Of a DNA stretch of 47,471 nucleotides, positions 21,157 through 33,545 are shown piece by piece. Numbering within the stretch: the first letter of the stretch is position 1; every line of letters begins with the position of its first letter. The notes under the pieces are model-generated. The model saw only the letters and a program-made list of their open reading frames with translations, searched no databases and was not told the origin of the DNA. Source of the DNA: Natrialba asiatica DSM 12278 (GTDB lineage: Archaea; Halobacteriota; Halobacteria; Halobacteriales; Natrialbaceae). The stretch lies in the NCBI RefSeq assembly GCF_000337555.1, contig NZ_AOIO01000009.1, positions 68,956 through 116,426 of the forward strand. The letters run 5' to 3'. Made by a program: the position numbers and the translations under genes.

Positions 21157-21828
21157 ATGATGGCCCCTCTCGTTAACGACAGGTCCTCTGGCCGATTAAA
21201 TAATTAGTCGGCTGTTGCTGGGGTGCGCTGGAGAGAAGCAACTGTACCGACCGAGATTGAGTTGTGCCCCCGGTCGGTGAACGAGTGATGAGCGCACTTT
21301 ACGGACCAGTCTCCTCGTTCAAACACGGCCGAATCGAGAGCAGGTGGCGCCTTCTGTGATACCCCTTAGATCGACGACTGTCTACTTCCGGTCGCAGTAC
21401 ACTGTTCCCCTGTACTTACCGATCTGTGTGTTCGCTAAAAATGTGAAGAAGAGCGGGCAGAACGCCCTGTGACACTCTCTGTCTATTGTGAGTGTGCCAG
21501 AGAAATCACCCCACAGTGGTAATTCCACTTTCGTTTACGGTGAACTGACCGCTAAGTAGGCCTGCAAATCTACTGCTGGCACTTCTATCACCTATCGGGA
21601 ATTTCGGGAGAGCCATGCTAAATCCACAGCGTGAATGTAGTACGATATTTGACTCAATTTGCGAAGATGGTGATCTCTCAGTACAGACGTAGTAACCGAT
21701 GGATCCGAAATGGAGTCCGGGCAAGATACGTACCCTCTATTTAGGAGCTACGAGTATACGGTGTGCGTGGCGGACTGGTGGTGGTCATCTTTATGCTAGC
21801 AGAACGTTTCCTAAACCTGGTTGAAACG
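21157..21828. other. Gene-free stretch upstream of the RibD-like gene
   Basis: These 670 bases carry only short conflicting frames with mixed composition. I recognise no protein remnant, RNA gene or repeat. The right end must hold the promoter of the gene at 21829. Confidence 0.35.
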
Positions 21829-22383
21829 ATGAAGACCCAATACTACACAGCAACGAGCATCAACGGGTATCTCGCTGATGAAAATCACTCACTTGACTGG
21901 CTCTTCCAGTTCGGAGATATTGAGGAGATTGAGGGCGTACAGGATGACTACCCGCAGTTCATAGATCAGGTTGGTGCCTTGGCCATGGGCTCGACGACCT
22001 ATGAGTCGGTCATCGAGCAGGAAAACCTACTGGACAACCCGGAAAAGTGGCCGTATGAGGTTCCGGCATGGGTATTCAGCAGTCGGGAGTTACCGGTGGT
22101 TGATGGTGCGGACATCCGCTTCGTGCGGGGAGATGTTGCGCCAATCCATGCGGACATGGTAGAGGCCGCAGGTGGTAAGAACGTCTGGCTTGTCGGTGGC
22201 GGTGACCTTGTAGGACAATTCCACGACCACGGTTTACTCGACGAGATTATTCTCACCGTTGCTCCCGTTACGCTCGCTTCGGGTGCGCCACTACTGCCAC
22301 GCACTATCACTACTCCGCCACTGAAACTAGTTAATGTGCAACAATATAGCGATGTTTTTGCGGTTCTAACCTACGAAGTGTAA
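21829..22383 (+). CDS. RibD C-terminal / dihydrofolate reductase-like protein
   Basis: The start is the ATG at 21829 (MKTQYYTATSINGYLAD), giving 184 residues; an upstream in-frame start would add a hydrophobic stretch foreign to the family. Diagnostic features are the N-terminal strand with 'SINGYLAD', 'ALAMGSTTYESV' and 'KNVWLVGGGDLVGQFHDHGL' near the nucleotide-binding loop, then 'DEIILTVAPVTLASGAPLLP'. This superfamily (RibD-C, PF01872) contains riboflavin-pathway reductases and many uncharacterised DHFR-like oxidoreductases that use NADPH. This copy is unlinked to riboflavin genes. It is a more distant relative of the three copies at 29-33 kb. Confidence 0.85.
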   Translation: MKTQYYTATSINGYLADENHSLDWLFQFGDIEEIEGVQDDYPQFIDQVGALAMGSTTYESVIEQENLLDNPEKWPYEVPAWVFSSRELPVVDGADIRFVRGDVAPIHADMVEAAGGKNVWLVGGGDLVGQFHDHGLLDEIILTVAPVTLASGAPLLPRTITTPPLKLVNVQQYSDVFAVLTYEV

Positions 22384-25406: not shown

Positions 25407-25617
25407 CTATTTTTCCTCATCGAAAGCAGTGCTGCTCGGTTCGTGGACGAGCACGTGGTCCTCGGGGACGGGCGTGACAGCGTCCGCGTCGGCGAGCTTA
25501 CCTGACCACGTTGCGGGCCGTCGCGTCGTCGACGTCCGTCGAATCGGTCTCGTAGGTCTCGATGCGTTCGCCCGTCGCGCGGTTGATCGCGTCCGTGTTG
25601 GGTGGTGTAGTGTCGCT
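25407..25617 (-). pseudogene. Stump of a succinate-semialdehyde/aldehyde dehydrogenase gene
   Basis: Immediately after the iron dehydrogenase stop the minus strand reads 'SDTTPPNTDAINRATGER' followed by 'IETYETDSTDVDDATAR', which is the N-terminus of an aldehyde dehydrogenase of the GabD type (usual 'INPATGExIxTYE'). A TAA closes the frame at 25498. A second piece in another frame, 'KLADADAVTPVPEDHVLV' then 'HEPSSTAFDEEK', ends at 25407 and belongs to an unidentified protein. The whole catalytic part is missing and there is no start codon. Position and order fit the third gene of a gamma-butyrolactone operon. Confidence 0.55.
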
Positions 25618-26930
25618 TAGTCTTCCCAGTTGTGCAGCGTGTCGCGGAACACGTCCGCGACATCCTCCTTGGTCACCGGTCGGGGGTTACACCGCAGCAG
25701 GCGCTCCTGCGTATCGACGGTCTGTTGGGCCAGCCAGTCGATGTCCTCCTCCGTGATTCCGGCAAGCTCGGTGAGGCCGCTGGGGAGTACGTTTAGGTCC
25801 TGCTGGAGCTGGATGTACGCCTGTTTGAGTGCGTTGGCGGCCTCGCGGTTCGTCATCCCCGCGGTGTCGACGCCGAAAATCTCGGCCACCCTGGCGAACC
25901 GCGCGGGGTCGCTCGCGGAGTTGTAGTCGATAGTGCTCGCGGGGGTGAGTACGGCGATGGTCTCACCGTGGTATGTGTGGTACTTGTTTCCGACTGGATA
26001 CGCCATCGCGTGACAGAGGCTGGCGCCGGCCGTGAGCCCGGAAATGGCGCCGAACAGTGCACCCAGCAACATATCCTCTCGGGCGTCGAGGTCGTCGCCA
26101 TTGTGGACGGCAGTGCGTGCACTCCCTGAGAGGAGGCGGATCGCCTTCTCGGAGAACATCTCGGTGAGCTGGGTTCGGCCGGCGTATACTGGGCGCTCGG
26201 CCGGGTCGCTCGCACGCAGCAACGAGTCGTGCTCGTGGGTGGTGTACCCCTCAATCGCATGGCCAAGCGCGTCCATCGCCGTCCTTGCGGTGAGTTCCGG
26301 CGGGAGCGTCGTCGTCAACGTAGGATCGAGAACAGCAGCATCGGCACGGACGTGGTTGCTCGAGATGGCCTCTTTGATCTCTTTCTCCGGTACCGAGAGG
26401 ATGGCGACTGGCGAGATCTCGGCGCCGGTGCCGGCCGTGGTCGGTAGCAGCACTAGTGGCGGCCCGGACTCAGTGAGGCTTTGGCCGTCGCCGGTCGGTT
26501 CGGAGATGTAGTCGAGCGGGCTGCCGCCGTTGGCGATGATCGCGCGAGTAGCTTTCGCGGTATCCATACAGCTCCCGCCGCCGAGGCCGACGTAGAAGTC
26601 GTATCCGTTGTCGGTCTGCTCCCGGACAAACGAGAGGCAATCCTCGATAGCACTGATCGAGGGTTCGCGCTCTGACTTGTCATACAGGTCGGCGCCGAGG
26701 CCAGCGTCCTTGAGGTGGGCAACGACACGGTCCGCGTGGCCGGCATCGGCGACCCCCTCGTCGGTGATCACGAGCCCGGTAGCCGTCCCCTCAACGCCGA
26801 GATCGCGCAGTTGGAAGGCGAGTTCGTCGGTGGCGTCCCGGCCGAACCGGATTTCCGGCATGTCGATATGCCAGACGGTCTCGGGGGAGAGTTCGTGGCT
26901 GTCGGCCGAGACGGAGCGGTCGTAGCTCAT
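25617..26930 (-). CDS. Iron-containing alcohol dehydrogenase, 4-hydroxybutyrate dehydrogenase-like
   Basis: The 437-residue protein is a type III (iron) alcohol dehydrogenase. The NAD-binding loop is 'VGLGGGSCMDTAKA' near residue 115, 'LPTTAGTGAEISP' follows, and metal ligands are expected in 'DALGHAIEGY' and the later 'SLCHAMAYPVGNKYHTYHG', all present. Overall layout resembles hydroxyacid-oxoacid transhydrogenase and 4-hydroxybutyrate dehydrogenases. It starts at the base next to the lactonase stop, so both are one operon. With the lactonase before it and an aldehyde dehydrogenase stump after it, the likely reaction is 4-hydroxybutyrate to succinate semialdehyde (as BlcB/AttL in Agrobacterium). 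Other short diol or hydroxyacid substrates remain possible. Confidence 0.9.
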   Translation of the reverse strand: MSYDRSVSADSHELSPETVWHIDMPEIRFGRDATDELAFQLRDLGVEGTATGLVITDEGVADAGHADRVVAHLKDAGLGADLYDKSEREPSISAIEDCLSFVREQTDNGYDFYVGLGGGSCMDTAKATRAIIANGGSPLDYISEPTGDGQSLTESGPPLVLLPTTAGTGAEISPVAILSVPEKEIKEAISSNHVRADAAVLDPTLTTTLPPELTARTAMDALGHAIEGYTTHEHDSLLRASDPAERPVYAGRTQLTEMFSEKAIRLLSGSARTAVHNGDDLDAREDMLLGALFGAISGLTAGASLCHAMAYPVGNKYHTYHGETIAVLTPASTIDYNSASDPARFARVAEIFGVDTAGMTNREAANALKQAYIQLQQDLNVLPSGLTELAGITEEDIDWLAQQTVDTQERLLRCNPRPVTKEDVADVFRDTLHNWED

Positions 26931-27734
26931 TCAGGACCACCCTGACCGGATCTCTTCGAACTGGTCGGGATCGTGACCGTACACCACCTCGGCGTCGTGG
27001 GAGCGTTCGAGGTCCTTCAGCGTCTGGAGGCTATCGAACCACTCCTGGTTGCCCCAGAGCAGGCCGGCACCCAGCGGCACTTCGTCTTCGTAGTTGACCG
27101 ACTGGTAGATCTCGTCGCCCGCGAACACAAGCGTCCCGTGGTTGTCCAGGTGGATTATCGTCCCCATGAGTCCGGGCGTGTGACCAGGGAATCGAATGAA
27201 CTCCACGTCCTCGAAGTGGCTCTCGCGGTCTTGGTGGACGATCTGCCAGTTCAGGTCGTGGTCGAAGTCTTCCAGAATGTACGCGGCGCTTCCCTTGTCG
27301 GTCTTCTCGGAGTAGTACGCGAACTTGAGTTCCTTCTCGTGAACATACACTGGAACGTCCGTACCGCCGAAGTGGTGGAGTCCGCCGGCGTGGTCCAGAT
27401 GCAGGTGGGTCTGAAACACAGCGTCGATGTCATCGAGGCTGTAGCCCGCGTCCGCGAGGTCTCCCTCCAGCGTGTGTTCCTGCACGTCGTGGGGGTAGAA
27501 CGCTTGCTTGAGGCCTTCCGGCCAGTGGCCGTTGAGTGCGTCCTCGTGGTTACCCGTGTCCCAGAGGATCGTCGCCTCCGGGTGGTCGATGACGAGGTTC
27601 CACACCGGGATCTCCTCGTAGTCGGCGTCGGGATTAGGTTCGTCGTAACTCCCAAGCGTGTTGCCCTGGACCAGGTAATTGAGATCACACTTCAACCCGC
27701 CGCGATGGATCACATCAATGCTAGCATCTACCAT
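26931..27734 (-). CDS. Metallo-beta-lactamase-fold lactonase (BlcC/AttM-like)
   Basis: The 267-residue enzyme has the dinuclear zinc signature 'THLHLDHAGG' (His110, His112, Asp114, His115), a later 'FPGHTPGLMG' His, 'FAGDEIY' Asp and 'VYGHDPDQF' His, exactly the set of N-acyl-homoserine and gamma-butyrolactone lactonases. The N-terminus 'VIHRGGLKCDLNYLVQG' also matches that subfamily. It hydrolyses a lactone to a hydroxyacid; next to a 4-hydroxybutyrate dehydrogenase-like gene, gamma-butyrolactone is the best substrate guess, while quorum-signal quenching is the main alternative. It is the first gene of its operon and divergent from the ArsR regulator at 27927. The leader is AT-rich with TTAATTAA. 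Confidence 0.9.
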   Translation of the reverse strand: MVDASIDVIHRGGLKCDLNYLVQGNTLGSYDEPNPDADYEEIPVWNLVIDHPEATILWDTGNHEDALNGHWPEGLKQAFYPHDVQEHTLEGDLADAGYSLDDIDAVFQTHLHLDHAGGLHHFGGTDVPVYVHEKELKFAYYSEKTDKGSAAYILEDFDHDLNWQIVHQDRESHFEDVEFIRFPGHTPGLMGTIIHLDNHGTLVFAGDEIYQSVNYEDEVPLGAGLLWGNQEWFDSLQTLKDLERSHDAEVVYGHDPDQFEEIRSGWS

Positions 27735-27881
27735 ATATTCTTAATTAATATTCAATAACAAATAGGTTTGGGAGACTGACTTGTGGTGATCTTCTGATGA
27801 GTGACATCCACCGCCACGCGGGCCATTCGATGTACCGAGTGTTTCACGCAGCGTGAGCGCTGGGAAGACGAATCCGAATTG

Positions 27882-27935
27882 TTTAACCTGTAGGTTTAAT
27901 ATATTGCGGGCTGTACGCTTAACCGGATGGTTGAA
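27882..27935 (+). promoter_or_regulatory. Paired pseudo-palindromic operators of the ArsR operon
   Basis: TTTAACCTGTAGGTTTAA (27882-27899) and CTTAACCGGATGGTTGAA (27918-27935) share the plan TTAACC-N4-GGTT-AA. Their centres are 36 bases apart. The first overlaps the TATA-like TTTAATATA and the second covers the ATG at 27927, a layout that would let the regulator block both polymerase binding and clearance. A half-site TAGGTTT lies at 27766-27772 in the divergent lactonase promoter. Confidence 0.6.
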
Positions 27936-28265
27936 CAACAGCCGGACGACCTGGATCTCGACGCGGTCTTCAAGGCGCTGGGCCACCCGATCCGTCGAGA
28001 AATCATCGAACAGCTCGCCGACGGGCCAAAGAGCGTCAGCGAGCTAGCCGACCCTCACGACGTGTCGCTGGCAGCGGTCTCGAAGCACCTGCGCGTGCTG
28101 GAGGACGCGGGCCTGCTCGACATCGAAGAGGACGGCCGGGTTCGACGGTGTCACCTCGACGCTGCGCCGCTGAGCGACGCGTTCGGGTGGCTGACCCGGT
28201 ACCGCGTCCTCTGGGAGGACCGCTTCGACGCGCTGGCCGACCATCTGGAGAACGAAGACCGATGA
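27927..28265 (+). CDS. ArsR-family winged-helix regulator
   Basis: The 112-residue protein has the compact ArsR/HTH_20 fold: 'VFKALGHPIRREIIEQLADG', 'SVSELADPHDVSLAAVSKHL', the recognition helix ending 'HLRVLEDAGLLD', a wing 'DGRVRRCHLDA', then a long dimerisation helix with Trp residues (GWLTRYRVLWEDRF). It lacks the Cys pairs of metal-sensing members, so it belongs to the non-metal SdpR/YdfF-like group often placed before SRPBCC (AHSA1) genes. Its TGA overlaps the next ATG (ATGA), starting a coupled operon. Two matching palindromes at its promoter suggest autoregulation. The signal is unknown. Confidence 0.9.
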   Translation: MVEQQPDDLDLDAVFKALGHPIRREIIEQLADGPKSVSELADPHDVSLAAVSKHLRVLEDAGLLDIEEDGRVRRCHLDAAPLSDAFGWLTRYRVLWEDRFDALADHLENEDR

Positions 28266-29182
28266 CAAACAACGACACGATCGATGAGACCGAGATCGAA
28301 ACGACCGACGCGACGCTTACCCTCCGCCGGACGTTCGACGCGTCGCGCGAACGGGTGTGGCAGGCGTTCACCGACCCCGAGGAGCTCGAACAGTGGTTCG
28401 TTCCCGACGGCATGACGGCAGCGGTTCACGCCCAGGAACTCGAATCCGGTGGCGACATGTCCATCTCCTGGACCGACGGGGAGAATCGCATCGACAACGA
28501 GGGAACCTACGTCGAAGTCGTCGAGCACGAACGCCTCGTTACTGGTGAGGAGACCGAAGCGGGAGAGCTACGTGTCATCTACGAGTTTCAAGATGTTCAG
28601 GATGGGACGGAAGTCGTCGTCACCCAGGAGTTCCCCGGAGAGGTGCCCGACGGTGCCGCCGAAGGATGGGCGGGAATGCTCGAAAACCTGGCGGCGCTAC
28701 TTCAGGAATCCGGCGCAGATCCCACCGAGGCCGACGAACGAAGCATGACCGCGAGTCGTGTCGTCGAAGCATCGCCCGAGCGAGTGTACGAGGCGTTCCT
28801 CGATCCCGACGAACTCGCCCGGTGGTTGCCACCGACCGGCTTTTCGGCCGAGGTCCACCACCTAGAGGCCGAGGAGGGCGGGACGTTCCGCGCCACGTTC
28901 ACCGGAGAGACCGAGGAGTTCGCGGACTACGGCCACTCCTTCGGGGGCACCTACCAGGAGCTGGTCCGCGGTGAACGCATCCTCTACACGGAATCGTTCG
29001 AAACCGACGACCCGGCGATGGCCGGCGAGATGACGGTGACGGTCACCTTCGAGACGGTTTCCGAGGGGACTGAGATCACCGTCCGCCATGAGGGATTCCC
29101 CGAGGCTACCTCCCCAAGCGATGCCAACGAGGGATGGACCGACTCGCTCGGGAACCTCGCGGCTGTCGTCGAGGAGGCGTAA
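28262..29182 (+). CDS. Tandem SRPBCC (AHSA1-type) protein
   Basis: From the ATG at 28262 (MTNNDTIDETEIE) the 306-residue product contains two START-like SRPBCC domains. The first (residues 15-140) has 'LRRTFDASRERVWQAFTDPE' and 'ELEQWFVPDG'; the second (160-300) has 'SRVVEASPERVYEAFLDPDE' and 'LARWLPPTGF'. Each should form a deep hydrophobic pocket for a small ligand. AHSA1-type domains are named after the Hsp90 co-chaperone but most bacterial and archaeal members are of unknown function. The gene overlaps the ArsR stop by four bases and is followed after two bases by a DHFR-SRPBCC fusion. Two domains in one chain point to a local duplication. Confidence 0.9.
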   Translation: MTNNDTIDETEIETTDATLTLRRTFDASRERVWQAFTDPEELEQWFVPDGMTAAVHAQELESGGDMSISWTDGENRIDNEGTYVEVVEHERLVTGEETEAGELRVIYEFQDVQDGTEVVVTQEFPGEVPDGAAEGWAGMLENLAALLQESGADPTEADERSMTASRVVEASPERVYEAFLDPDELARWLPPTGFSAEVHHLEAEEGGTFRATFTGETEEFADYGHSFGGTYQELVRGERILYTESFETDDPAMAGEMTVTVTFETVSEGTEITVRHEGFPEATSPSDANEGWTDSLGNLAAVVEEA

Positions 29183-29184
29183 TC

Positions 29185-30261
29185 ATGAGGAAACTCGTCG
29201 TAAGCGAGTTCCTGACGCTCGACGGCGTGATGCAGGCCCCGGGCGACTCCGACGAGGACACCGAAGGCGGGTTCGAGCACGGCGGCTGGCAGGTGCCGTA
29301 CTTCGACGACGTGGACCCGGCCGTCGCCGAAGGGTTCGACGACGTGGACGCGCTCGTGCTCGGCCGGAAGACGTACGAGATCTTCGCGTCGTACTGGCCG
29401 ACCGCGAGCGAAGATGAGCCCTTCACCGAGCAGATGAACAGCGTCGACAAGTACGTGGCCTCCCGGACGTTGGACGCGGCCGACTGGCAGAGCTCGACGG
29501 TCCTCGAGGGAGACGTGGCCGACGCGGTCACCGAATTGAAACAGGAGCCTGGCGGTGACCTCGTAGTTTTCGGCAGCGGGGACCTCGTCCAGACGCTCAT
29601 GGCCAACGACCTCGTCGACGAATACCAACTCATGGTCCACCCGCTGGTCCTCGGCACCGGCAAACGGCTCTTCACGGACGAGAGCGAGCCAACCGGTCTG
29701 GAACTCGTCGAGATGGAGACGACCGACTCGGGCGTCGTCGTCCTCACCTACGAGCCGGCGGAGAAAGAGGAGGGAAAACCAACGACAGACGACGCGCCGA
29801 ACGCCGAAGCCGAAATCGAAACCAGCGAAAACCAGCTGACAATTCGGCGGACGTTCGACGCGCCGCGCGAGCGAGTCTTCCGTGCCTTCACGGAACCGGG
29901 AGAACTGGAGAAGTGGTTCGTTCCTTCACCGGGCGACGTTACGACCGACGTCCAAACTTTCACTGCCGAGCCGGACGGGGAGCGCTCGATTCGCTTCCAC
30001 GCGGACGACGAATGGTTTGGAAGTGACGGTGCGTTCGAGGAAGTCGTCGAGAACGAACGGATCGTCTACACCGACCGGTGGGTTAACTTCCCGGAAGCCG
30101 ATGTCGACAGCCGCGTCACCGTCGAGTTTACTGACGTCGAGGACGGCACAGAAATCGTCCTCACCCACGAACAACTCCCGACGGGCGACTTCGTCGGGGG
30201 CGCCAGGATGGGCTGGGAGATTTCCTTCGACAACCTGGCACCAGTACTCGTAGAATCATGA
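29185..30261 (+). CDS. Fusion of a RibD/DHFR-like domain to an SRPBCC domain
   Basis: The 358-residue protein (start MRKLVVSEFLTLDGVMQAPG at 29185) has two domains. Residues 1-190 are DHFR-like: 'VSEFLTLDGVMQAPG', 'VDALVLGRKTYEIFA', 'GDLVVFGSGDLVQTLMANDL', 'VHPLVLGTGKRLF'. A Glu/Lys-rich linker leads to an AHSA1-type SRPBCC domain from about 215 ('IRRTFDAPRERVFRAFTEPG', 'LEKWFVPSPGD'). Neighbouring genes carry the same two domains separately, so the fusion links them functionally: a ligand-binding protein joined to a likely NADPH-dependent reductase. The stop overlaps the next ATG (ATGA). No catalytic chemistry has been shown for these DHFR-like proteins. Confidence 0.9.
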   Translation: MRKLVVSEFLTLDGVMQAPGDSDEDTEGGFEHGGWQVPYFDDVDPAVAEGFDDVDALVLGRKTYEIFASYWPTASEDEPFTEQMNSVDKYVASRTLDAADWQSSTVLEGDVADAVTELKQEPGGDLVVFGSGDLVQTLMANDLVDEYQLMVHPLVLGTGKRLFTDESEPTGLELVEMETTDSGVVVLTYEPAEKEEGKPTTDDAPNAEAEIETSENQLTIRRTFDAPRERVFRAFTEPGELEKWFVPSPGDVTTDVQTFTAEPDGERSIRFHADDEWFGSDGAFEEVVENERIVYTDRWVNFPEADVDSRVTVEFTDVEDGTEIVLTHEQLPTGDFVGGARMGWEISFDNLAPVLVES

Positions 30262-30356
30262 CCAAATTCGACGCAACCGACACAAGCCAGACCATTCAAC
30301 GAATGATCGAGGTGTCACCGGAGTACGCCCAAGCCTCAGGGAGGGGATCGCAGTGA
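30258..30356 (+). CDS. Coupled 32-codon frame, possibly a gene remnant
   Basis: This frame overlaps the fusion gene stop (ATGA) and its own TGA overlaps the ATG of the SDR gene (TGATG). It reads 'MTKFDATDTSQTIQRMIEV' and then 'SPEYAQASGRGSQ'. The tight coupling on both sides suggests that it is translated. It is too short for a domain and I recognise no family, so it may be the head of a deleted gene or a real micropeptide that carries ribosomes across. Confidence 0.35.
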   Translation: MTKFDATDTSQTIQRMIEVSPEYAQASGRGSQ

Positions 30357-31102
30357 TGCTGGATGACAAAGTCGCCGTGATCTACGGTGCGGGCGGGTCG
30401 ATCGGCGGTGCCGTCGCACGAGCCTTCGCCAGCGAGGGCGCTGACGTCTTCCTCGCAGGTCGCACCGCAGCACCGCTCGAAGCGGTCGCCGATGACATCC
30501 GTTCGGACGGCGGCGAAGCCGACACTGCCGTCGTCGACGCCCTCGACGAGCAGGCCGTCGACGAGTTCGTCGATGCGGTGGTCGAGGAGACCGGACGCAT
30601 CGACATCTCGTTTAATCTCATCGGAATCGGGGACGTTCAGGAGCCGTTGACCGAGATCTCGGTCGGGGATTTCATGCAACCGATCACGACCGCGATGCGG
30701 ACGCAGTTTCTGACGACGAGGGCGGCAGCCAGGCACATGATCGAGGGCGAATCCGGGGTTATCTTGACGTTCGGCGGCTCGAATCCCGACGCGCCCCCTG
30801 GGACGGGCGGCTTCAAAGTCGCTCTCGACGCCATCGAAGGGCTTCGTCGGCAGTGGGCAGTCGAACTTGGTCCGCATGGCATCCGTGTCGTCACCCTGAA
30901 AACGGGGAGTGTGCCAGAGTCGATCCCAGACGATATCGAATACCGCGATGAGGTCGCTGCTGCGACGAAGGAGGCAACCCTGCTGGATAGGGCAGCGACA
31001 CTGGCCGACGTGGGGGACGTCGCAGCCTTCGTGGCCTCTGAGCAAGCCCGCACCATCACCGCCACGGAAGTCAACATCTCCTGTGGCGCGATTATGGAGT
31101 AG
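30356..31102 (+). CDS. SDR-family protein lacking the YxxxK catalytic motif
   Basis: The 248-residue protein has a short-chain dehydrogenase fold: nucleotide loop 'YGAGGSIGGAVARAF', 'LAGRTAAPLEAV', an Asp-containing 'VVDALDEQAV', 'LIGIGD' in place of the usual NNAG, and a closing 'VAAFVASEQARTITATEVNI'. The active-site helix reads 'GGFKVALDAIEGL' where a classical member has YxxxKxxxxGL, so the Tyr is Phe and the Lys is Leu. The Ser in 'LTFGGSN' is still there. It may bind NAD(P) without classical activity, or use another mechanism. It is coupled to the genes around it. ATG at 30356 is chosen over the GTG at 30353. Confidence 0.85.
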   Translation: MLDDKVAVIYGAGGSIGGAVARAFASEGADVFLAGRTAAPLEAVADDIRSDGGEADTAVVDALDEQAVDEFVDAVVEETGRIDISFNLIGIGDVQEPLTEISVGDFMQPITTAMRTQFLTTRAAARHMIEGESGVILTFGGSNPDAPPGTGGFKVALDAIEGLRRQWAVELGPHGIRVVTLKTGSVPESIPDDIEYRDEVAAATKEATLLDRAATLADVGDVAAFVASEQARTITATEVNISCGAIME

Positions 31103-31110
31103 ATGTTCAG

Positions 31111-31291
31111 ATGAGCAAGGTAGTATTCGATACCAGCATGTCGGTGGACGGGTTCATCATCGCAGGAAATTCGAGCGAACGATCGGCGAGTCGACCTGGC
31201 ACGAACGGAAATCGTAGAGGGCCCCGGCGTCACGCACCACCTCTATCGCGTCGACGGCAGGCAGGAAGAAATGGAGTACGACAAGCAATGA
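31111..31291 (+). pseudogene. Internally deleted RibD/DHFR-like gene
   Basis: The frame begins like the intact copies: 'MSKVVFDTSMSVDGFIIAGN'. After about 20 codons the sequence jumps to the end of such a protein in another frame: 'VDLARTEIVEGPGVTHHLYR' and a tail ending 'MEYDKQ' at the TGA at 31289. About 150 residues of the middle are missing. The TGA still overlaps the ATG of the next SRPBCC gene (ATGA), so the broken gene may be kept for translational coupling. Read straight through in its first frame it merges with the following gene, which would give a misleading long protein. Confidence 0.75.
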
Positions 31292-31767
31292 CGAACGACA
31301 CGACAAACGACACAGAGATCGAAACGAACGAACGAAGCCTGACCATCCGACGACGGTTCGACGCGCCACTCGAGCGCGTCTGGGAAGCGTGGACGGACCC
31401 CGACCAGGTCGATCAGTGGTGGGGTCCGGACGGCTTCACGACCACGACCGACGAGATGGAGGTCCGGCCAGATGGAGTCTGGCAGTTCGTGATGGTCGGC
31501 CCCGACGGTGACGAGTACCAGAACCGGATCGTCTACGACGAGATTGTGGAACCCGAGCGCTTGGCCTACACTCACGGGTCCGACGACGACCCCGAGCAGT
31601 TCCGAGTAGCGGTCACCTTCGAGGAGTCCGACGGTGGCGGGACCGAACTCACCATGGAGATGCGTTTCGGGTCCGCGGATGAACTCGACGAAGCCGTGGA
31701 GTTCGGCGCAGACGACGGGGCGAAGCAGACCCTAGAGCGTCTCGCCGATCACCTCGTGGCGAAATAA
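31288..31767 (+). CDS. SRPBCC (AHSA1-type) protein, copy 3
   Basis: The start is the ATG at 31288 (MTNDTTNDTEIETNERS); a longer frame from 31111 belongs to the deleted DHFR-like gene. The 159-residue single-domain protein has 'IRRRFDAPLERVWEAWTDPD', 'QVDQWWGPDGFTTTTDEM', 'RPDGVWQFVMVGPDG' and the C-terminal helix 'GAKQTLERLADHL', the complete AHSA1-like fold. It is closely related to the next gene (31780), sharing the 'WWGPxGFTTT' and 'DEIVEPERL' segments, so the two arose by recent duplication. Ligand and role are unknown. Confidence 0.9.
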   Translation: MTNDTTNDTEIETNERSLTIRRRFDAPLERVWEAWTDPDQVDQWWGPDGFTTTTDEMEVRPDGVWQFVMVGPDGDEYQNRIVYDEIVEPERLAYTHGSDDDPEQFRVAVTFEESDGGGTELTMEMRFGSADELDEAVEFGADDGAKQTLERLADHLVAK

Positions 31768-31779
31768 CCGATATGGCCA

Positions 31780-32283
31780 ATGACTGACAACGAACTCGAC
31801 GACCAACCGATCGAAGAAGAGACTACCGAACTGAGGATCACGCGGACAGTCGACACTCCGCGAGAGCACCTCTGGGAAGCGTGGACCGATCCAGAGCAAG
31901 TGGCGAAGTGGTGGGGTCCGAACGGGTTCACCACCACTGTCCACGAGATGAACGTGCGGCTGGGTAGCGTCTGGCGGTTCGTCATGCACGGGCCCGACGG
32001 TGCAGATTATCGTAACGAGTTCGTCTCCGACGAGATCGTAGAACCGGAGCGCCTGATCTATACCCACCCCCCGAACGAAGAGAACGGTTTCCTGCGGTTT
32101 CAGGTGACGGTGGCCTTCGACGAGGGCGACGGCGGCAGGAACGACCTGACTTTCCGGATGGACTTCGACTCCGCTGCGGAGCGCGAAACGCTGGAGGAAT
32201 TCGGCGGAGTCGAGGCGGCGGATCAGACGCTAGACCGTCTGGGAGGGTTCCTGACGAACGGCGGAGCCGGAGGAGGCGAGTGA
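31780..32283 (+). CDS. SRPBCC (AHSA1-type) protein, copy 4
   Basis: A 167-residue paralogue of the preceding gene: 'ITRTVDTPREHLWEAWTDPE', 'QVAKWWGPNGFTTTVHEM', 'VWRFVMHGPDGADYRN' and the closing 'AADQTLDRLGGFL'. The two differ most in the mid-domain strand region that lines the pocket, which suggests different ligands. Its TGA lies one base before the GTG of the DHFR-like gene at 32285, repeating the SRPBCC-DHFR order seen at 28262/29185. Such pairing is the recurring unit of this locus. Confidence 0.9.
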   Translation: MTDNELDDQPIEEETTELRITRTVDTPREHLWEAWTDPEQVAKWWGPNGFTTTVHEMNVRLGSVWRFVMHGPDGADYRNEFVSDEIVEPERLIYTHPPNEENGFLRFQVTVAFDEGDGGRNDLTFRMDFDSAAERETLEEFGGVEAADQTLDRLGGFLTNGGAGGGE

Positions 32284-32284
32284 C

Positions 32285-32929
32285 GTGACGGAAGTCTTCG
32301 TCGACATGTCGATGTCGCTTGACGGGTTCATCGCCGGGCCGAACGACGGTCGAGAGAACCCTCTGGGCGAGGGGGGCGAGCGGCTCCACGAGTGGGTGTT
32401 CGATCTGGCGAGTTGGCGCGAGCAGCAGGGACTCGACGGTGGGACGACTAACCGGGACGCCGAAATCGTAGCCGAGTCCATCGAGCGGACCGGCACCCAC
32501 GTGATGGGTCGGCGGATGTTCGACAACGATGATGGGCCGTGGGGAGACGAACCCTTCGAGGGCCACTGGGGCGAGACTCCGCCGTTCCACGGACCGGTCT
32601 TCGTGCTCACCCATCACCCCCGCGAACCGCTGGAAATGGACGGCGGGACGACGTTCCACTTCGTCACGGACGGGATCGAAACGGCGCTGGAGCGGGCGAG
32701 GACGGCAGCCGGCGACGGGGACGTCCGAATCTCGGGCGGTGCGGATGTCGTCCGCCAGTACGTTGAGGCGGGACTCGTAGACGAGATTCAGATTCAACTC
32801 GTGCCCGTGCTGCTCGGCGACGGCATCCGACTATTCGAGCACCTCGACACCGAACCGATCGAACTGGAACGGACGCGGGTGGTCGACTCTCCCGACATCA
32901 CCCACCTTCGGTACAGCATTGTGGACTGA
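32285..32929 (+). CDS. RibD/DHFR-like protein, closing gene of the array
   Basis: The start is a GTG at 32285, tightly spaced after the SRPBCC stop. The 214-residue product is an intact DHFR-like member: 'VDMSMSLDGFIAGPND', 'GTHVMGRRMFDNDDGPWG', 'PVFVLTHHP', 'DVRISGGADVVRQYVEAGLV', 'VPVLLGDGIRLFEHL'. This is the yyaP/RibD-C group, expected to bind NADPH and a folate- or pyrimidine-like substrate, but mostly uncharacterised. It is the full-length relative of the deleted copy at 31111. Nothing on this strand follows closely, so it probably ends the operon. Confidence 0.9.
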   Translation: MTEVFVDMSMSLDGFIAGPNDGRENPLGEGGERLHEWVFDLASWREQQGLDGGTTNRDAEIVAESIERTGTHVMGRRMFDNDDGPWGDEPFEGHWGETPPFHGPVFVLTHHPREPLEMDGGTTFHFVTDGIETALERARTAAGDGDVRISGGADVVRQYVEAGLVDEIQIQLVPVLLGDGIRLFEHLDTEPIELERTRVVDSPDITHLRYSIVD

Positions 32930-33071
32930 TAGATGGTGGCGAGAGGGAGAGATACCGGACCAGTCTACAACGGAGTGAACGGTGGTTACCGAGGCGATCT
33001 CGGCCCGGACGGAATGACGAAGGCAAGATACGGAATAAGACCAGTATCGTTTTCGTCTGCCGCGTCGGAGC

Positions 33072-33545
33072 ATGCTCATGCCTGCATCACCCTCGTCGAC
33101 TGGCCACTCGTCAGCAGCTGTCTGGCCTGGCTACGCGGCGGGCGCGTGGGCGCTTCTCTTCACCCTTCCACACGTTTACTGGGCGCTCGGCGGTACTCTC
33201 GGGCTTGCGGGTCGCTCGATGACAGGGACGCTGTTGCTGGTGAATCTCGTCGCCATCCCGTTGCTTTTCCTCGCCGCGGGTGTCGCACTCGGAACCGTCA
33301 CGTTGTGGGGCCGGATAATTCCCCGCTGGATGTTGCTTTCCGCTGTCTGGGGCGTAAGCCTAATTCTGGGTGCGCGGGGTATCGGCGGTCTTGTTCAACG
33401 CGGCCTATCAGGCGGACACGATGGCAGTCAATCTCTCCTCAGTCTGATCGCCGACCCGTGGTTCGTGCTCGGAGGCGTCCTTTTCGGCATGGCAGCCGCG
33501 ACTTACTCCCGGAAGTCGTCTGTCCGAGAGAATCGGAGAACCTGA
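33072..33545 (+). CDS. DUF3995-like four-helix membrane protein
   Basis: The 157-residue protein has about four hydrophobic helices. 'YAAGAWALLFTLPHVYWALG' carries the family-like 'HVYWALGG', then come 'LLLVNLVAIPLLFLAAGVAL', 'MLLSAVWGVSLILGARGI' and 'WFVLGGVLFGMAAATY', with a basic cytoplasmic tail. This matches DUF3995, a small membrane protein of unknown role in actinobacteria and haloarchaea. It starts 142 bases after the array and could be in the same transcription unit or independent. Alternative start at 33078. Confidence 0.7.
   Translation: MLMPASPSSTGHSSAAVWPGYAAGAWALLFTLPHVYWALGGTLGLAGRSMTGTLLLVNLVAIPLLFLAAGVALGTVTLWGRIIPRWMLLSAVWGVSLILGARGIGGLVQRGLSGGHDGSQSLLSLIADPWFVLGGVLFGMAAATYSRKSSVRENRRT

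Follow-up and report, generated by a model that had tools for sequence, protein, structure and literature searches.

The genome of Natrialba asiatica DSM 12278 contains an unusual run of genes headed by an ArsR-family repressor and composed otherwise of SRPBCC, DHFR-like (RibD_C) and SDR-fold proteins (positions 27927-32929 of the window, i.e. the whole 47,471-nucleotide stretch of DNA analyzed). The locus raises the question of whether such a multiplicity of a few domain families behind one regulator constitutes a genuine system, and if so what it might act upon.

Gene content and layout of the array

Every gene of the run, from the ArsR gene to the final DHFR-like gene, was located and has Pfam support, in agreement with the original prediction (Table 1). 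The overlapping junctions that it described are likewise present: ATGA at the ArsR/SRPBCC, fusion/tiny frame and broken DHFR/SRPBCC boundaries, and TGATG between the tiny frame and the SDR gene. Among relatives, an overlap of exactly 4 nt is seen at 93 of about 140 scored junctions.

Table 1. Genes, gene remnants and predicted operators of the array (positions in the window)
Feature	Coordinates	Strand	Support
Predicted operator O1, TTTAACCTGTAGGTTTAA; the right arm of this inverted repeat reaches into a TATA-like stretch	27882..27899	.	
Predicted operator O2, CTTAACCGGATGGTTGAA; inverted repeat spanning the ArsR start codon	27918..27935	.	
ArsR-family repressor, 112 aa	27927..28265	+	HTH_20 2.8e-15; ArsR clade in 49/392 genomes
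Double SRPBCC (AHSA1) protein, clades A and B	28262..29182	+	two AHSA1 stretches, 6.2e-52; SH-aLRT A 98%, B 99%
DHFR-like (RibD_C)/SRPBCC clade C fusion	29185..30261	+	RibD_C 9.7e-24, AHSA1 7.9e-26; at mosaic junction
32-codon frame, probable SRPBCC N-terminal relic ahead of the SDR gene	30258..30356	+	similarity to SRPBCC N-termini
SDR-fold protein without catalytic Ser-Tyr-Lys	30356..31102	+	adh_short_C2 4.4e-38
Broken DHFR-like (RibD_C-type) gene; N-terminus intact, C-terminal piece out of frame	31111..31291	+	
SRPBCC protein, clade D	31288..31767	+	AHSA1 3.4e-33; tree
SRPBCC protein, clade E	31780..32283	+	AHSA1 7.7e-25; tree
DHFR-like (RibD_C) protein, second deep clade	32285..32929	+	RibD_C 2.5e-18; 3kgy 3.1e-47; tree

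All five SRPBCC domains score above the cut-off for AHSA1, a label used here as a Pfam family name only, and the array accounts for five of the seven AHSA1 locations across the 4.4 Mb host genome. The DHFR-like proteins reach 84.7 and 67.1 bits against the RibD_C cut-off of 24.1 and display the conserved Gly-Arg and Gly-rich cofactor motif columns in alignments. Their assignment as the archaeal riboflavin reductase (TIGR01508) was rejected, the score of 19.6 bits being far too low for an equivalog cut-off of 186. An anti-phage defence system was also considered and rejected: PADLOC gave no match for the seven non-ArsR proteins tested, and the ArsR matches only Csa3/CasR/CARF regulator models across its HTH stretch. 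Elsewhere in the window, an HMM built from the DHFR domains of the array detects another, stand-alone DHFR-like gene (21778-22383). A divergent pair adjoining the array (25617-27734) encodes an AhlS-like metallo-beta-lactamase of the lactonase family and an iron alcohol dehydrogenase; it was rejected as part of the system, as it does not recur beside other arrays.

A recurrent family of ArsR-headed arrays

A search with the array ArsR recovered 71 matches in 49 of the 392 genomes of the order, all at least 64% identical; the clade of 71 loci was defined at E <= 1e-28, and the domain string downstream of each ArsR was read. An intact SRPBCC domain is present in 68 of these loci, an intact DHFR-like gene in 19 and an intact SDR in eight, seven of which belong to a conserved SDR clade, with one (L062) outside it. 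Three or more units are found in 20 loci and relic domains in 18, the most frequent type being the bare ArsR-SRPBCC pair. The window array has the highest number of intact SRPBCC domains (five) and, in total intact units, is level with that of Haladaptatus halobius (eight each). The 392 genomes hold ten full-length orthologues of the SDR, seven of them inside such arrays. Similar arrays occur on named plasmid records of Halomontanus rarus, Natrinema, Halocatena marina and Salinigranum rubrum.

The original prediction had accepted that the idea of a system fails if the genes prove scattered in relatives. Instead, across many genera, one ArsR clade heads mixtures of SRPBCC, DHFR-like and SDR genes, and the comparison supports the array as a real, recurrent system of haloarchaea. 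The proposed search for an ordered domain string thus bore out the recurrence but not a fixed gene order, the cargo being shuffled between loci. The absence of a described equivalent was also upheld: the literature searched, including for ArsR together with SRPBCC, yielded nothing on this system and no description of such an amplified array. A separate observation concerns a conserved membrane-like protein of 78 aa (L071, 6791-7027), with similar genes in seven other loci, which is always encoded on the strand of the ArsR gene and mostly downstream of it.

An SDR-fold protein lacking the catalytic residues

The SDR-fold protein contains an adh_short-type domain (131.6 bits), and its AlphaFold2 model (mean pLDDT 85.7) is FabG-like, with a TM of 0.87 to FabG. 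Its characterization as inactive-looking is well founded: relative to canonical SDRs, the catalytic columns of all 13 haloarchaeal orthologues compared show Ser replaced by Gly, Tyr by Phe (Leu in one) and Lys by Leu, and these columns are altered in the bacterial relatives too. A seemingly conserved lysine (GGFK) was rejected as the catalytic one, the canonical Y-x-x-x-K aligning to F-K-V-A-L. With the catalytic triad gone and a dN/dS of 0.10-0.18, indicative of purifying selection, the protein is therefore conserved without the standard chemistry; from its glycine motif, we infer that it binds an NAD(P) cofactor.

These residues bear on one alternative account of the locus, namely a small biosynthetic or catabolic operon that makes or degrades one metabolite, with the SRPBCC domains as cyclase-like or carrier proteins and with pathway reductases supplied by the DHFR-like proteins and the SDR. 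The SRPBCC domains do match Polyketide_cyc2 too, and the divergently encoded lactonase and alcohol dehydrogenase next to the array would suit such a pathway. However, the SDR lacks catalytic residues, the run has no synthase, ligase or oxygenase, the lactonase/dehydrogenase pair is not repeated beside other arrays, and a content ranging from one to eight units could hardly be tolerated by a fixed pathway, making this account unlikely.

Old clades in a mosaic array

A quick tree assigns each of the five SRPBCC domains to a clade of its own, with orthologues elsewhere among the arrays (SH-aLRT 98% for clade A, 99% for B and 100% for C; the groups of D and E are smaller). The two intact DHFR-like proteins likewise separate, into two deep clades. 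The earlier statement that an SRPBCC-DHFR unit recurs three times is therefore an overstatement of the repetition, because the SRPBCC domains represent five different old clades and the intact DHFRs two deep ones. Recent tandem duplication inside the window was rejected, as the SRPBCC domains lie in separate old clades. In the clade strings, A precedes B, often as a fusion, and the DHFR_c-type clade usually comes last, the order being otherwise not fixed.

At the DNA level, 27813-29759 and 32996-33197 are 89% and 93% identical to an array on a Natrinema plasmid (L089), and 29815-31164 and 31356-32706 are 86% and 90% identical to an array of Haladaptatus pallidirubidus (L049). Synonymous divergence (dS) is uneven along both alignments: 0.31 for ArsR, 0.57 for the double SRPBCC gene and 0.06 for the DHFR part against L089, and 0.71 for SRPBCC-C, 0.43 for the SDR and 0.08 for SRPBCC-E against L049. 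Judged by sequence, the window array is a mosaic with cargo that was shuffled, not freshly duplicated, and arrays are shown to vary between strains through recombination and cassette loss. L089 still contains part of the last DHFR gene and may itself have arisen by deletion. Cassette decay could be followed well in the Salinigranum rubrum plasmid (L090, 5657-9956), which has a ten-unit array with four units reduced to relics.

The irregular genes of the window array fit into this mosaic. The DHFR/SRPBCC fusion, modeled as two domains with a low-confidence linker, sits at the first junction, where the L089-like block meets the L049-like block. Among the arrays examined, this RibD_C/SRPBCC fusion is confined to the window, and it was rejected as a conserved domain architecture; given this and its junction position, the proposal that the fusion signals joint binding and reduction is not supported. 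The broken DHFR sits at the next junction: its N-terminal DNA is collinear with L049 up to 31164, and its C-terminal piece, in another frame, matches a different DHFR in L090 at 1e-7. The predicted tiny frame is present, but is better described as resembling a shortened SRPBCC N-terminus. Matches to SRPBCC N-termini reach 3e-6 to 1e-5 for its L049 counterpart and only 0.005 for the window copy, and are absent for the copies of several other arrays; it is likely an SRPBCC relic, and may serve translational coupling.

Such remnants invite a second alternative, in which the array is mostly a decaying pile of paralogs behind an ArsR-SRPBCC core, maintained by plasmid spread and with nearly functionless extra cassettes. 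It accords with the tiny frame and the broken DHFR, with the relic domains of other loci and the two decayed sibling loci of this genome, and with a dN/dS of 0.83 for one SRPBCC pair. Yet most window genes show dN/dS values of 0.10-0.28, and five old SRPBCC clades have been preserved intact within one array, so that we regard this account as improbable. The two siblings lie in the same genome at C9:48043-48378 (L187) and C21:34000-40000 (L216): one has an intact ArsR and a broken SRPBCC gene, the other a broken ArsR with operators and SRPBCC intact. From the relics in 18 of the 71 arrays and these two loci, it follows that part of the array cargo may be dispensable.

The ArsR regulator and its predicted operators

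The regulator scores 75.5 bits against a cut-off of 55 for the ArsR/SmtB transcription factor model NF033788, and HTH_20 and HTH_5 are also above cut-off. O1 and O2 occur gap-free and at fixed positions in about 68 loci, whatever the cargo, with low information between them and a variable spacer. O1 follows the pattern TTTAACY-N4-RGTTTAA in the group of the window and TTYAACY-N4-RGTTAAA in others, and O2 the pattern TTCAACY-N4-GGTTGAA. O1 is the sole exact match to TTHAACYNNNNRGTTDAA in the host genome; allowing one mismatch or none gives nine sites, versus five for a control pattern, with O2-type sites at the window array and the two sibling loci contributing three of the nine. All but one of 69 loci have GTT as codon 2 of ArsR, although GTT accounts for just 14.5% of the Val codons in window genes. 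TTAAGC half-sites, in place of TTAACY, go with three ArsRs that are the sole carriers of K53Q in the recognition helix; these form one divergent clade and count as a single event. The conservation of O1 and O2 upstream of ArsR irrespective of cargo implies that it most likely represses its own array. The ArsR resembles the model of the SdpR autorepressor subfamily (55 bits) and is probably autoregulated, although it falls under the curated cut-off of 100 and no SdpI partner is seen.

An operon responding to metals or arsenic, suggested by the database name 'metalloregulator', the score above the NCBIfam HTH_metalloreg cut-off and a cysteine (Cys 75) conserved in 73 of 77 ArsRs, is very improbable, since none of the 77 has more than one Cys, leaving no pair or cluster for a CxC-type site, and arsenic or metal transport genes are not recurrent beside the arrays.

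Known relatives and a proposed function

Foldseek neighbors of the fusion include 8jsv (44% identity) and SacH (7xh2, 20%) for the DHFR-like domain, and 1z94, CalU16 and DynU16 for the SRPBCC domain. CalU16 and DynU16, which are SRPBCC proteins of enediyne loci and stand here with the CalC-type proteins as resistance precedents, have this fold in common with the array proteins at about 20% identity in Foldseek, but no enediyne genes were seen with the array. SacH, a protein of the safracin locus associated with reductive self-resistance to tetrahydroisoquinoline antibiotics, shares the DHFR-like fold with low sequence identity. A detoxification precedent with an SDR is NapW, which provides reductive self-resistance to antibiotics of this class (PMC8648761). 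It has the fold in common with the array SDR, but the latter lacks Ser-Tyr-Lys, is of low identity and is not part of a biosynthetic cluster. The nearest solved relatives of the two array DHFR clades (3kgy, 8jsv and yyaP/2gd9; 3.1e-47, 2.4e-51) are stand-alone proteins, unlike the array genes.

The same three families also adjoin in bacteria. A Streptomycetaceae plasmid (NBC_01309) carries an ordered ArsR-SRPBCC-DHFR triad, with an ArsR 33% identical to that of the window. Among the best 80 of many genome loci, relatives of the last DHFR-like gene are mostly stand-alone; Bradyrhizobium and a Rhodothermia MAG have ArsR, SRPBCC and DHFR genes as neighbors, and a few further loci have SRPBCC-DHFR pairs. 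These bacterial sets contain a single DHFR with one SRPBCC unit or two, lack an SDR and are not amplified, unlike the haloarchaeal arrays. The triad already exists in bacteria; what is new is its amplified and shuffled form.

The best explanation for the whole, to which we give a probability of roughly 0.45, is an ArsR-autoregulated cassette array for toxic small organic compounds. Of the roles originally suggested, binding and reducing a toxic compound remains the likeliest; that SRPBCC proteins bind and DHFR-like proteins reduce such compounds we put at a little under even odds. The toxic-organics role is favored because there are resistance precedents, because ArsR does not look like a metal sensor and because the arrays are accessory and often carried on plasmids; against it, the precedents are fold-level likenesses, and no exporter or toxin genes travel with the arrays. 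In the absence of inducer, ArsR would occupy O1 in the TATA region and O2 at the start codon, blocking its own transcript, which is probably leaderless. The inducer that releases it would be a small organic molecule rather than a metal. Each SRPBCC protein would then have its own ligands within a class of reactive hydrophobic compounds, which the DHFR-like proteins would reduce with NADPH; the SDR, as an NAD(P)-binding fold without the usual chemistry, may be a binding or partner subunit. Different cassettes could confer different ligand ranges. More tentatively, and on balance doubtful, the arrays might be combinatorial resistance loci, in which one ArsR with a fixed double operator governs an exchangeable set of SRPBCC and DHFR-like proteins plus the pseudo-SDR, with cassettes swapped by recombination to change ligand range.

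Significance

Small-molecule resistance in archaea and its regulation are hardly known, and the array supplies a testable repressor-operator pair. It also places two widespread DHFR-like clades without an assigned substrate in a context that hints at one, and presents a conserved protein with a dehydrogenase fold whose role must differ from ordinary SDR chemistry. Finally, the creation of fusions and relics by recombination between tandem genes is legible step by step in this array.
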